A stretch of 59,624 bases of DNA from Bacteriovorax sp. Lineage in GTDB: Bacteria > Bdellovibrionota > Bacteriovoracia > Bacteriovoracales > Bacteriovoracaceae. The position numbers were made by a program, and so were the translations under genes. The stretch is from NCBI GenBank assembly GCA_018060625.1, contig JAGOVS010000005.1, positions 1 to 59,624 on the forward strand, written 5' to 3'. The notes beneath the pieces are model-generated. The model was not told where the DNA came from and did no database searches. It worked only from the letters and a program-made list of their open reading frames with translations. Numbering within the stretch: position 1 is the stretch's first letter; each line of letters opens with the position of its first letter. Shown here in pieces: positions 42,601 through 53,248 of the stretch.

Positions 42601-42745
42601 GTGTGGATAAGTGGAAAAGCTATGAAAGAATAACGATATCATTATGTTATGTCTTTTGTTTATATGGATTATTTCTAATAACATTGATGTTTTTAGGCCT
42701 TGCGCAACAGAGATTCAGCTTTATAGGCCCTTTAAAAAATAGTTT

Positions 42746-42766
42746 TCCACGGCCTTTCCACGGCCT
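42746..42766 (+). repeat. Left arm of 21-bp perfect inverted repeat in oriC
   Basis: Built from tandem 11-mers of the type TTTCCACGGCC. It is the exact reverse complement of 42958-42978, 191 bp away. The CCAC core resembles a weak DnaA box (TTTTCCACG versus TTATCCACA). Confidence 0.9.
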
Positions 42767-42957
42767 TTCCACAATGCCTTTAGAAATGTGGTTTTTCCTC
42801 TTTTTTTATTAAAGATTCCTATTTTATTAACATTTTTATCCACATTGTTGATAACTTTTTGTGGATAACTTTGCTTTGTTGAAAACTTTCTCACAATCTG
42901 TCACGAATTTTGGCCATATGTCATTTCGAGATAAGTTTTGTGGATAACTATGTTGAT

Positions 42958-42978
42958 AGGCCGTGGAAAGGCCGTGGA
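42958..42978 (-). repeat. Right arm of 21-bp perfect inverted repeat in oriC
   Basis: Two tandem GGCCGTGGA units form the arm; degenerate copies continue at 42979 (GGCCGTTGATAAC) and 43002 (GGCCGTGGATAAC), where the unit merges with a DnaA box. This suggests an iteron family related to DnaA boxes. Confidence 0.9.
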
Positions 42979-43077
42979 GGCCGTTGATAACTTTATTCAC
43001 AGGCCGTGGATAACTTTGTCTTTTTTGACACAGTTATTCCTTTCGAGACTTTCTAATTTATCTATTAGGGATTTTTT

Positions 43078-47080: not shown

Positions 47081-48718
47081 ATGAGTTTCTATACAGATAA
47101 TTTACCTATCATTGCATGCAGTACTGGCACTCAGGCCAATACTGCGATAGCAGTGATAAGGCTTTCTGGTTTTTCTTCGCTTATTGAGTTACAACCTTTT
47201 TTTTCATTTTCGTTATTAAAGGTAAAACCTCGATATAGTCATTTAACAAATGTTATTTTCAATACCCAAGTTTTTGATAATGGCCTTATGGTTTTCTTTC
47301 CTCAAGGGGAGAGCTATACAGGGGAGAATGTTCTTGAGCTTTCTGTTCACGGAAACCTTCTCAATATTCAAAGAATACTTGATCTTTTCATTCAAAATGC
47401 AGGCTTTCGTGATGCGCACCCTGGAGAATTCACTTATCGGGCCTTAAAAAATAAGAATCTTTCACTTTCTCAAGTAGAAGGTTTAGATATGCTTTTGAAT
47501 GCAAATTCGAATTTAATGCTCACTCAAGGCTTAGATATCCTCCAAGGCGAACTTCATGCTCAATACCTAGAGCTTTATGAAAGCTTCATAAAACTAAAGG
47601 CTTCTATTGAGCTTTCGATTGATTTTTCTGAAGATGTAGGGGAGGAGGAGTCTCGTCATTTATTTTTGGATTCCTTTATTCACTTTTCTGACCTTTTAGA
47701 TGCACTCCATGTTCGAACTCAGGGGAATTTGTCCTCACTTCTCTCTCCAGAGGTTGTTTTAGTTGGTCAGACCAATGCCGGAAAGAGCTCCCTTTTTAAT
47801 TTATTGGTAAAGCAAAACCGTTCTATTGTTTCAAATATCGCTGGAACAACTCGTGATTATATTTCTGAACTCATCCATATTGATGGGACCAACTATAAAT
47901 TAGTGGATACGGCCGGAATAAGAGATTCACAGGACACGATTGAAAACATAGGAATTGAGCGAGCTTTTGAAATATTAGAGAGGGCCTTCTTTCGTATTTT
48001 AATAATCAATCCTTTTGAAACAAATCCAGAATATATTAATAAATTACATGAATTTGAATTTGATCTTTTGCTTTTTTCTCATTGGGATAAAGAGGACTTT
48101 TCAAAGAGATTGTTAGAGTTGGATTTATCTTCCGTCTCTGCAACTTATTTTGCGGCAGCAAGCTTTGAGAGTGGTTCTATAGAACCACTTACGAAACTTG
48201 GTCCTATAGAACCACTTACGAAACTTGGTCCTATAGAGCCACTTACGAAACTTGGTCCTATAGAACCACTTACGAAACTTGGTCCTATAGAACCACTTAT
48301 GAAACATGGTCCTATAGAACCACTTATGAAACTTGGTCCTATAGAACCACTTATAAAACATGGTCCTATAGAACCACTTTCGAAACTTGGTCCTATAGAA
48401 CCACTTATAAAACATGGTCCTATAGAACCACTTTCGAAACTTGGTCCTATAGAACCATTTGTAAAAAATTTGATTGTTCAAAAATTTAAAGAAAAGACTC
48501 TAGATGGCCCCATATTAATAGAGAGACATCGAGGCGTAATAAATAAACTATATTTAGCAAAGAGCAGTTTATCTTGTAAAATCAAGGAGATAGGTGATGT
48601 GGCGATACTCTCGTCTGAGGTCAATATCTTTGCAAACCATCTTAGCGAGTTAATTGGAGTCGTCTCACCTGATGATGTACTTAATTCAATTTTTTCAAAT
48701 TTTTGCATTGGTAAATAG
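47081..48718 (+). CDS. mnmE: tRNA modification GTPase MnmE with an internal 11-unit repeat insertion
   Basis: MnmE works with MnmG to form cmnm5U at the wobble base of certain tRNAs. Seen in 545 aa: N-terminal tetrahydrofolate-binding domain (to about 120), helical domain, G domain with G1 GQTNAGKSSLFN (near 228), G2 region TTRDYISE, G3 DTAGIRD (near 276), and the C-terminal FCIGK whose Cys is the family hallmark. Normal length is about 455; the excess is an in-frame array of 9-residue units, (G)PIEPL-x-K-(L/H), at residues 365-463, beginning right in the G5 loop. The G4 motif reads SHWD instead of NKxD. The reading frame is open throughout, so the protein is probably made. Confidence 0.95.
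   Translation: MSFYTDNLPIIACSTGTQANTAIAVIRLSGFSSLIELQPFFSFSLLKVKPRYSHLTNVIFNTQVFDNGLMVFFPQGESYTGENVLELSVHGNLLNIQRILDLFIQNAGFRDAHPGEFTYRALKNKNLSLSQVEGLDMLLNANSNLMLTQGLDILQGELHAQYLELYESFIKLKASIELSIDFSEDVGEEESRHLFLDSFIHFSDLLDALHVRTQGNLSSLLSPEVVLVGQTNAGKSSLFNLLVKQNRSIVSNIAGTTRDYISELIHIDGTNYKLVDTAGIRDSQDTIENIGIERAFEILERAFFRILIINPFETNPEYINKLHEFEFDLLLFSHWDKEDFSKRLLELDLSSVSATYFAAASFESGSIEPLTKLGPIEPLTKLGPIEPLTKLGPIEPLTKLGPIEPLMKHGPIEPLMKLGPIEPLIKHGPIEPLSKLGPIEPLIKHGPIEPLSKLGPIEPFVKNLIVQKFKEKTLDGPILIERHRGVINKLYLAKSSLSCKIKEIGDVAILSSEVNIFANHLSELIGVVSPDDVLNSIFSNFCIGK
48173..48469 (+). repeat. 27-bp x 11 in-frame tandem repeat (minisatellite) inside mnmE
   Basis: Eleven contiguous units start at 48173, 48200, 48227 and every 27 bp to 48443. 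The first five units are nearly identical at DNA level; units 5-10 alternate KH and KL endings, and units 7-10 form a 54-bp higher-order period. The last unit is degenerate (EPFVKN). Each unit carries GGTCCTATAGAACC, a near-palindrome, while the first is inside a perfect 18-bp palindrome GTGGTTCTATAGAACCAC (48171-48188). Confidence 0.98.
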
Positions 48719-48764: not shown

Positions 48765-48780
48765 TGTTCTACGTGGAACA
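48765..48780. promoter_or_regulatory. parS-like site upstream of mnmG
   Basis: TGTTCTACGTGGAACA matches the widely conserved chromosomal parS (TGTTTCACGTGAAACA and the TTCCACGTGGAA form) with a central ACGTGG core. It ends 3 bp before the mnmG ATG. An identical copy lies at 51215-51230, and parAB lies just downstream of that copy. Confidence 0.85.
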
Positions 48781-50640: not shown

Positions 50641-51269
50641 AAGAATTTAGCCAAAAATACCTCGAACTACTCACTGGAGAATTTTCTGGGATTAATCTCA
50701 CTCGAATTGATGGCCCTGAGGAGTTTTACAACAAACAGATATTGGACTCTGTGCTGCCAATGGAAAAGAGTGCGGTTTTTAGAAATGCTCTCGAAAAAAC
50801 AAAAATCTTAGTCGATATTGGTTTCGGTGGCGGATTTCCAATTCTTCCATTGGCCTTCAAGAATTTAGATAAAAAATTCTATGGATTCGACGCAAGAGCA
50901 AAAAAGGCACAGGTTGTTTCTAAGATAGCGACTAGGTTAGAGCTAGAGAACGCAAAGCTTCTCCATCAACGCTTTGAAGAAGTTATTTTCGATCGAGATG
51001 CCGTTATCACCTTCAAGGCAGTTGGAAAGGTGGCCGATCTACTTCCACTGCTAAAAGCAAATAAGACGCTTTATGTGTTCTTCTACAAGGGGCCAAATTT
51101 TTACGAACTCGAAGACATTGAGCCACTGCTTGAGACATGGGAGCTTATCGAAGAAGTTTCATACGATGTTGAAGGAACTGAAGGGAGATTGCTTTTAGGC
51201 TTTAAAAATAAAAATGTTCTACGTGGAACAAAGACCGCAAAAAATATTAAATTTTCTGAGTTACTTTAA
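50637..51269 (+). CDS. rsmG: 16S rRNA (guanine527-N7)-methyltransferase RsmG
   Basis: 210-aa SAM-dependent methylase. The N-terminal NLTRIDGPEEFYNKQILDSV matches the RsmG NLT-x-I...H-x-x-DS block with some changes, and LVDIGFGGGFPILPLAF is SAM motif I (usual DVGTGAGFPGIPLAI). It starts in the mnmG stop (ATGA overlap). The C-terminal codons for NVLRGTKT contain a parS site, so this protein end is partly shaped by a DNA-binding signal. Confidence 0.93.
   Translation: MKEFSQKYLELLTGEFSGINLTRIDGPEEFYNKQILDSVLPMEKSAVFRNALEKTKILVDIGFGGGFPILPLAFKNLDKKFYGFDARAKKAQVVSKIATRLELENAKLLHQRFEEVIFDRDAVITFKAVGKVADLLPLLKANKTLYVFFYKGPNFYELEDIEPLLETWELIEEVSYDVEGTEGRLLLGFKNKNVLRGTKTAKNIKFSELL
51215..51230. promoter_or_regulatory. 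parS-like site inside the 3' end of rsmG
   Basis: The 16 bases TGTTCTACGTGGAACA are identical to 48765-48780, including the off-centre T that breaks the perfect palindrome. It lies 93 bp before parA. Exact conservation of a coding and a non-coding copy argues for selection by ParB. Confidence 0.87.
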
Positions 51270-51322: not shown

Positions 51323-52219
51323 ATGGCTAAAATTATAGCAATGATGAACCAGAAGGGTGGCGTAGGAAAAACGACATCATCAGTCAATTTGGCGGCGTGT
51401 CTAGCAGTAGCTGAGAAAAAAACTCTACTAATAGATCTTGATCCACAAGGCAACGGAAGCATCAGTATTGGCTTAGCAAAAGATACTTTTGCCCAAAAGA
51501 ATATTTATCATGCACTCATTGGGCAAATTAGCTTAAAAGAAGCTATTTACGAGTCTGAGCTTCCTTATTTTCATATATGTCCTTCAGATAACAATCTCTC
51601 TGGTGCAGAGATAGAATTAGTGAGCTTGTTTGCACGTGAGTCGAAGTTAAAAAACGCCTTTAAGGCAATTGAAAAAGATTATGATTACATCATTATCGAC
51701 TGTCCGCCTTCGTTGGGTTTATTAACAGTCAATGCCCTCAATGCTGCCCATTCTTATATTGTTCCTATGCAAACAGAATATCTAGCAATGGAAGGACTTG
51801 CCCAGCTGCTTAACACTGTAACGCTTATTCGTTCATCATTAAATCCAGATCTAGAATTAGATGGAATTCTTCTGACAATGTATGATTCGCGTTCGGGTCT
51901 TCATAAGCAAGTTGCCAATGAAATTAAAACGCATTTTGCAGATGTTGTATTTGATACAATCATACCAAGAAATGTAAAGCTCGCTGAATGTCCTAGTTTT
52001 GGAAAACCAATTATTCTTTACGATATTGAATCGAAAGGCAGTGAGGCTTATCTTGCTTTGGCTAAAGAGCTAATCCTTAAAGAGCGATTTAAAAATAGTG
52101 GAGCCGCTAAGAATGCTCCAACAAAAATAGAAGAGAAATTACCTGAAGAAAAAATTATGGATATCATTCCTTCGTTAGAAAATATTAATTTTGATGATAA
52201 TCAAATATTCGAGCAATAA
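51323..52219 (+). CDS. parA: Chromosome partitioning ATPase ParA (Soj)
   Basis: 298 aa. Deviant Walker A NQKGGVGKTTSSVNLA (9-24), switch region LLIDLDPQGNGS, and DYIIIDCPPSLGLLTVNAL place it in the ParA/MinD family; basic residues near the C-terminus of the ATPase fold fit non-specific DNA binding. A tail of about 40 residues (KNAPTKIEEKLPEEKIMDII) extends past the usual Soj end. Ribosome site AAAGGA before ATG. ParB follows after 15 nt. Confidence 0.96.
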   Translation: MAKIIAMMNQKGGVGKTTSSVNLAACLAVAEKKTLLIDLDPQGNGSISIGLAKDTFAQKNIYHALIGQISLKEAIYESELPYFHICPSDNNLSGAEIELVSLFARESKLKNAFKAIEKDYDYIIIDCPPSLGLLTVNALNAAHSYIVPMQTEYLAMEGLAQLLNTVTLIRSSLNPDLELDGILLTMYDSRSGLHKQVANEIKTHFADVVFDTIIPRNVKLAECPSFGKPIILYDIESKGSEAYLALAKELILKERFKNSGAAKNAPTKIEEKLPEEKIMDIIPSLENINFDDNQIFEQ

Positions 52220-52234
52220 GCTTACGGAGTCTTT

Positions 52235-53188
52235 GTGGCAAAAAAACTTGCATTAGGAAAAGGGATCGCTTCGTTGCTTAGAGAATCGACTCCACAGTCA
52301 GTTGTAAATCAGACATATAATAATCAATTCGGTGATCAAAACGAAGATGAACTTGAGTCTAGTCAGGAACAGAGTGAACGTGTTGTCGAAATTCGTTATG
52401 AGAACACACCGCTACTTATTGATGTTGGCTCCATTAAGACAAATCCCAATCAACCTAGAAAAATTTTTAAAGAAAAAGATCTAGAAGAACTCTCAGAATC
52501 GATTAAAGAGAATGGAATTATTCAGCCCCTCATTGTTGCAGAAATGGAAAATGGACAATATGAACTTGTCGCTGGAGAGCGTCGCTTAAGGGCCGCTAAA
52601 AAAGCAGGTCTAGAGCAAGTGCCAGTGGTTGTTAAGAGAGCTACAGATCGTGAAAAAATGATCATGTCGATCATTGAAAACGTGCAACGTTCAGACCTCA
52701 ACTGTGTTGAAGAGGCCTTGGCTTACTATCAACTAATGAACGAATATAAACTGACTCAAGAAGACGTAGCAAAAAAGTTGGGTAAAGAGCGCTCAACAGT
52801 TGCGAATTTTCTCCGCATTCTAAATCTTCCAAGGCCCATTATTGATCTTCTTCAAAAAGAGTCACTTTCTTTTGGGCATGCAAAGATATTAGCCGCTGTT
52901 AAAGAGCGTGAGGATGCCATTAGACTTGCGAATGAGTGTATTGCCAACAATTGGTCTGTCCGAGAGCTTGAAAACGCTATAAAGGGCAAAAAACCACTTA
53001 AAGAGAAAGCTGCTCGCAAAAATCCATTTTTTGATGAAAAATTGGATCAATTCAAGAAAACTCTTGAGCAAAAGACAGGTTATCATTTTGGAATTAATTC
53101 TGGAAAAAATGGATCTGGTCAAATCGTTCTTAAATTTAGCAATGAGGCAGAATTTAACGATATATATGAATTTCTTTTATCTAAGTAG
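52235..53188 (+). CDS. parB: Chromosome partitioning CTPase/DNA-binding protein ParB (Spo0J)
   Basis: 317 aa, GTG start with ACGGAG upstream. N-terminal basic ParA-stimulating segment (MAKKLALGKGIASLLRES); ParB/Srx CTPase domain with NQPRKIF, ENGIIQPLIV and GERRLRAAKKAGL (near 114), the CTP-binding motif; ENVQRSDLNCVEEA, then a helix-turn-helix EDVAKKLGKERSTVANFLRI that reads parS; C-terminal dimer domain. Two parS-like sites lie within 3.5 kb upstream. Confidence 0.97.
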   Translation: MAKKLALGKGIASLLRESTPQSVVNQTYNNQFGDQNEDELESSQEQSERVVEIRYENTPLLIDVGSIKTNPNQPRKIFKEKDLEELSESIKENGIIQPLIVAEMENGQYELVAGERRLRAAKKAGLEQVPVVVKRATDREKMIMSIIENVQRSDLNCVEEALAYYQLMNEYKLTQEDVAKKLGKERSTVANFLRILNLPRPIIDLLQKESLSFGHAKILAAVKEREDAIRLANECIANNWSVRELENAIKGKKPLKEKAARKNPFFDEKLDQFKKTLEQKTGYHFGINSGKNGSGQIVLKFSNEAEFNDIYEFLLSK

Positions 53189-53224: not shown

Positions 53225-53248
53225 GGAGTGGTCCTATGGGACCACTCC
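53225..53248. other. 10-bp-stem hairpin between parB and the bactofilin gene
   Basis: GGAGTGGTCC and GGACCACTCC enclose a TATG loop. No T run follows, so it is a weak candidate as an intrinsic terminator; it sits just 18 bp before the bactofilin start and could act as an attenuator or RNA-stability element. Its core GTGGTCCTATGGGACCAC closely resembles the palindrome at the start of the mnmE repeat. Confidence 0.75.

Follow-up and report, generated by a model that had tools for sequence, protein, structure and literature searches.

Why a conserved tRNA-modification gene should carry a minisatellite in its coding sequence is the question raised by mnmE in a 59,624-bp stretch of Bacteriovorax sp. 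DNA (contig JAGOVS010000005.1 of assembly GCA_018060625.1). This stretch, hereafter the window, is one contig (C252) of a 3.26-Mb genome in 296 contigs, and its gene set is that of an origin region: gyrA, gyrB, recF, dnaN, dnaA, rnpA, yidC, mnmE, mnmG, rsmG, parA, parB, a bactofilin gene and atp genes. As argued below, the array probably represents clustered DNA-binding sites next to the replication origin, comparable to sopC of the F plasmid, for which mnmE would serve merely as carrier.

A tandem array in frame within mnmE

The array and its individual sites, as numbered in the window, are as follows.

47081..48718, plus strand: mnmE, carrier of the array, 545 amino acids (TIGR00450 above cut-off, PF10396, PF12631)
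48172..48457, plus strand: eleven 27-bp units in tandem, each made up of a 16-bp palindrome and an 11-bp spacer (Tandem Repeats Finder, motif scans)
48172..48187: site 1, TGGTTCTATAGAACCA, a perfect palindrome (motif scans)
48199..48214: site 2, TGGTCCTATAGAACCA (motif scans)
48226..48241: site 3, TGGTCCTATAGAGCCA (motif scans)
48253..48268: site 4 (motif scans)
48280..48295: site 5 (motif scans)
48307..48322: site 6 (motif scans)
48334..48349: site 7 (motif scan)
48361..48376: site 8 (motif scan)
48388..48403: site 9 (motif scan)
48415..48430: site 10 (motif scan)
48442..48457: site 11 (motif scan)

Tandem Repeats Finder reports a period of 27 bp with 10.6 copies, 92% matches and zero indels (48172-48457), the copy number coming from this assembly alone. 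The reading frame contains eleven 9-residue units of the pattern GxIEPxxKx directly C-terminal of the G5 strand, which bears out the original prediction of an in-frame array between that strand and the C-terminal helical part. Looked for genome-wide, the 27-bp unit occurs at this single location, with none outside the mnmE array. Dozens of assemblies made independently, isolates and single-cell genomes among them, have arrays built of other units at the same place; the array is therefore not an assembly artefact. In nearly all relatives an array stands at or near the equivalent MnmE position, with units of 8-14 residues and differing spacers (GPIEPVQNL, GPIEPEISKN, GPMGAEKS, GPIGPDKTS and others). 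Spacers are similar within one genome and dissimilar between genomes, in agreement with the growth by tandem duplication that had been proposed from the window alone.

Constraint on the 16-bp palindrome

The conserved core of each unit is the 16-bp palindrome TGGTYCTATRGRACCA, and the 11 bp between cores form a variable spacer. The half-site is GGTYC, with GCCCC as an alternative in one half; two GCCCC half-sites in one site were seen 0 times against 3.4 expected. Across 160 mnmE copies from 30 genes, information content is 1-2 bits per base inside the 16 bp and below 0.7 in the flanks. Codon choice within the sites is nearly fixed: Gly is GGT in 146/148 cases (32% elsewhere in the gene), Ile is ATA in 125/129 (22%), Pro is CCT in 105/109 (40%) and the final Pro is CCA in 128/135 (37%), although these codon and site counts are not independent because they come from tandem copies and related genomes. 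Since MnmE proteins of the family diverge to ~42% identity, synonymous sites should be saturated; inside the 16 bp they are fixed, while spacer residues drift across genomes.

The same block is found outside the gene. Among 57 sites beyond mnmE, the identical 16 bp stand out. The pitch of the sites is 24, 27 or 30 bp in mnmE; elsewhere it is 23-37 bp, usually 24-30, and mostly not a multiple of 3. The fixed codons, together with sites in other genes, in other frames and in non-coding DNA, argue that selection acts on the DNA and not on the peptide.

Several further observations concern the motif and its carrier. In one genome (G060; L239, G060:C66), the flanks are switched symmetrically from T...A to C...G in half of the motif copies (CGGTTCTATAGAACCG), which are still palindromic; canonical parS was not found within the 20 kb read there. 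Another assembly (G007, contigs C45, C109 and C140) holds several differing mnmE copies with differing arrays, reflecting either a strain mixture or duplication. In the window, the MnmE G4 motif NKxD reads SHWD (48060-48150) and the G5 motif SAxxGxG is degenerate; in a 25-sequence family alignment (A3), H334 and D336 vary hardly or not at all. An antisense open reading frame (ORF) of 118 amino acids with WFYRT repeats (48125-48481, minus strand) is the palindromic array read in reverse and nothing more.

Confinement to the origin region of one family

The 16-mer lies near oriC in 123 of 129 Bacteriovoracaceae genomes and in all 73 of good quality, and a reversed-pattern control gave 2 matches in total. 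When the array pattern was run over 257 Gb of prokaryote genomes, 68 stretches were retrieved, all beside oriC genes (dnaA to atpD). The records concerned are labelled as Bacteriovoracaceae, Halobacteriovorax, Bacteriovorax or Bdellovibrionota bins, apart from a few under wider or outdated names such as Deltaproteobacteria. Outside Bacteriovoracaceae, arrays were not above chance, and the eight genomes of the phylum with one loose match each are at control level. Two array-less genera (g43 and g5) keep a few dispersed origin sites. Seven genomes were listed in full: of their 89 distinct positions matching the loose pattern, 64 are in the vicinity of oriC, and the others occur at roughly the frequency of the control. 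A phage origin of the array was considered and rejected: the single match on a viral contig lies in a gene of a T4-like phage (L238, 1392-2825), whose collagen-like GPIGP repeats probably match by chance. Four exact 14-mers of the motif were not found in open-access text, nor was Bacteriovorax together with parS and ParB.

Within this region the sites gather around the partition locus. In 24 origin regions there are 176 sites, with 119 in mnmE, 29 intergenic and the remainder spread, in more than one frame, over the DNA upstream of the bactofilin gene, parB, yidC, dnaA, mnmG (in another frame), rnpA, rsmG, atpD and unnamed ORFs. In 23 of the 24 regions sites stand just before (outside) canonical parS, and 12 regions have sites immediately downstream of parB. 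The corresponding features of the window are given below.

42744..43019: probable oriC, flanked by dnaN and dnaA and containing DnaA-box-like repeats GTGGATAA (inferred position)
48765..48780: parS copy 1, canonical-type, TGTTCTACGTGGAACA, between mnmE and mnmG
51215..51230: parS copy 2, within rsmG at its 3' end
51323..52219, plus strand: parA of the chromosomal ParABS system (gene order, sequence)
52235..53188, plus strand: parB, encoding ParB1 (PF02195, HTH_ParB)
53229..53244: site 12, TGGTCCTATGGGACCA, between the parB stop codon and the bactofilin gene (motif scan)

Both parS copies have the identical, asymmetric form TGTTCTACGTGGAACA, and this form or its reverse complement also occurs in five close relatives (G003, G008, G001, G006 and G009).

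A candidate binding protein

A palindrome that is fixed, clustered, confined to the origin and indifferent to reading frame, with turnover between the copies, shows the pattern that sites for a dimeric protein would have. Besides ParABS, the genome encodes a second ParA-ParB pair (C241:14734-15615, L072), which is conserved family-wide. Orthologues of this ParB2 are present in 50/51 family genomes versus 0/141 other genomes of the phylum, and, at 54-90% identity, in 72 of the 73 good-quality family genomes. ParB2 falls in the ParB/Noc CTPase family, having a ParB_N domain (PF02195, 56 bits) and a GERRxRA motif followed by a helix-turn-helix; GERR.RA is invariant in 26 orthologues and the recognition helix nearly so. 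Foldseek matches its fold to Noc, KorB and ParB, the closest structure in the PDB being Noc. Near parA2B2 we looked for the 16-bp motif and for any shared long palindrome, and found neither; the sole common long palindromic word, considered as a possible ParB2 site of its own, is parA2 coding DNA and was rejected. Because of its family-restricted distribution, near-invariant recognition helix, Noc/KorB/ParB-like fold and lack of a palindrome of its own nearby, ParB2, with ParA2, is the best single candidate for the protein that may bind the 16-mer, at somewhat less than an even chance. A third ParB (ParB3, C120:20682) is unlikely as binder because orthologues were undetected in several motif-bearing genomes. 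A search for plasmid homologues of ParB2 with a similar array returned only distant matches, with at most 34% identity among the matches listed.

These results suggest a model in which a family-specific dimeric DNA-binding protein would load on the mnmE array and on the further sites downstream of parB and within nearby genes; once bound, the protein might anchor the oriC-parS region, segregate it or gate it. AlphaFold predicts MnmE residues 364-453 to be disordered (pLDDT <50), between a strand ending at 359 and a helix starting at 457. As the array falls in this loop, MnmE would tolerate in-frame repeats there, and sites could therefore multiply by tandem duplication while their spacers turn over. 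In the fullest form of the model, which we offer tentatively, Bacteriovoracaceae would possess a second system for partitioning the chromosome or organising its origin, ParA2-ParB2, with a sopC-like array, placed in frame in mnmE beside parS, as its centromere.

The genomes directly give the constraint on the DNA, its confinement to the origin, its family-wide conservation, the 24-30 bp pitch and the position beside parS; that a protein binds the 16-mer, and with what effect, we infer from these. Three points weigh against the proposal. G060, which is 99% complete, has the motif and ParB2 was not found in it, possibly through an assembly gap. Where both share one contig, parA2B2 lies ~300-390 kb from the origin. 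Finally, co-occurrence of ParB2 and motif at the family level counts as a single evolutionary event, and any protein specific to the family would match it equally well.

Alternative explanations

A protein on these sites might instead act as a gate or boundary for ParB1, blocking or limiting its sliding from parS. The sites just outside the first parS and just beyond parB speak for this, and the parS context of Bdellovibrio bacteriovorus offers a parallel (Kaljevic et al. 2023, PMC10547168); however, that organism is of another family, in which the present motif was not found. We regard this role as possible, though rather unlikely. Slightly more doubtful is a titration or sequestration cluster for a regulator of replication initiation or origin copy number, rather than a segregation or anchoring site. 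Tight proximity to oriC and clustering at equal pitch would suit it, but the sites are densest beside parS and parAB, some 5 kb away from the presumed oriC, which itself seldom contains one, and the motif is not a DnaA-box sequence.

The original prediction had placed the function in the protein: a native G5 loop was duplicated, altering the MnmE linker, and copy number would tune the GTPase. The eleven near-identical units, in frame directly after the G5 strand at a position conserved in many relatives, invite this reading. Its description of an in-frame tandem array after G5 stands; the G5 origin and the linker tuning are not supported. Array-less MnmE proteins (L036, L040) lack such a peptide at this place, in L032 the motif lies between G4 and G5 and also at residue 42, and the 16-mer is also found between genes, in genes other than mnmE and in different reading frames. 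Synonymous positions within the sites are fixed while the spacer residues drift, and the loop is predicted to be disordered; both likewise speak against selection on a linker peptide. A protein-level minisatellite is thus very improbable.

Readings as RNA hairpins, a mobile element or a protein linker all fit worse than binding sites for a dimeric protein. The palindrome with its TATA loop could fold as RNA in the mRNAs of origin-region genes, but the commonest sense form, C4/A11 (71 sites), gives a C-A mismatch, the wobble form T4/G11 accounts for only 34, 2-3 pairs are lost in the 49 sites that have one GCCCC half-site, and sites are intergenic and on either strand of genes; hairpins therefore have very little probability. 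A selfish palindromic element, like the repetitive extragenic palindromic (REP) or Rickettsia palindromic elements, would be short and present in both coding and non-coding DNA, but it is scarcely credible here, as the sites are confined to the origin instead of dispersed genome-wide and share 16 bp only, with no larger mobile unit or common longer flank in the genomes listed.

The preferred reading, a cluster of DNA-binding sites, exposes a conserved class of origin-region sites in Bacteriovoracaceae, a family known for mostly predatory members with unusual chromosome segregation. The exact 16-mer and a candidate protein make the binding hypothesis directly testable. That a conserved gene for tRNA modification may host a DNA-binding array within its reading frame also calls for caution in treating coding minisatellites as protein features.

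Comparison with known systems

Like parS of ParABS systems (consensus TGTTTCAC-GTGAAACA; PMC7383237), the array motif is an origin-proximal 16-bp palindrome, and TGGTTCTATAGAACCA agrees with parS at 10/16 bases; the six differing positions, however, include the centre and positions 3 and 14. Genuine parS copies are separate in the same regions (48765 and 51215 in the window), whereas the array motif clusters inside one gene. The Noc-binding sites (NBS; consensus TATTTCCC-GGGAAATA; PMC7383237) are likewise 16-bp palindromes of a ParB paralogue and distinct from parS, and Noc is the closest PDB relative of the candidate ParB2. Nevertheless, TGGTTCTATAGAACCA agrees with NBS at 8/16 bases only, and NBS are scattered over the chromosome while the array motif is confined to the origin region.

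In arrangement a close counterpart is sopC (parS-F) of the F plasmid, with twelve 43-bp tandem repeats and ten 16-bp inverted repeats (PMC6238139), against eleven units of 27 bp here, each with one 16-bp inverted repeat. sopC is served by a ParA-ParB pair, and ParA2-ParB2, which co-occurs with the motif (72/73), is a candidate for that part. The mnmE array differs in being chromosomal, inside a coding sequence, at a pitch of 24-30 bp and of different sequence. In attack-phase B. bacteriovorus, 242-330 bp of DNA surrounding parS keep ParB from clustering, an effect attributed to an unidentified lineage-specific factor (PMC10547168). The phylum's other families did not yield the present motif. 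Both cases involve local DNA around the origin parS, in B. bacteriovorus controlling the centromere through a lineage-specific factor, and the B. bacteriovorus effect is the most suggestive functional parallel to the array, a direct link between the two being conjectural.
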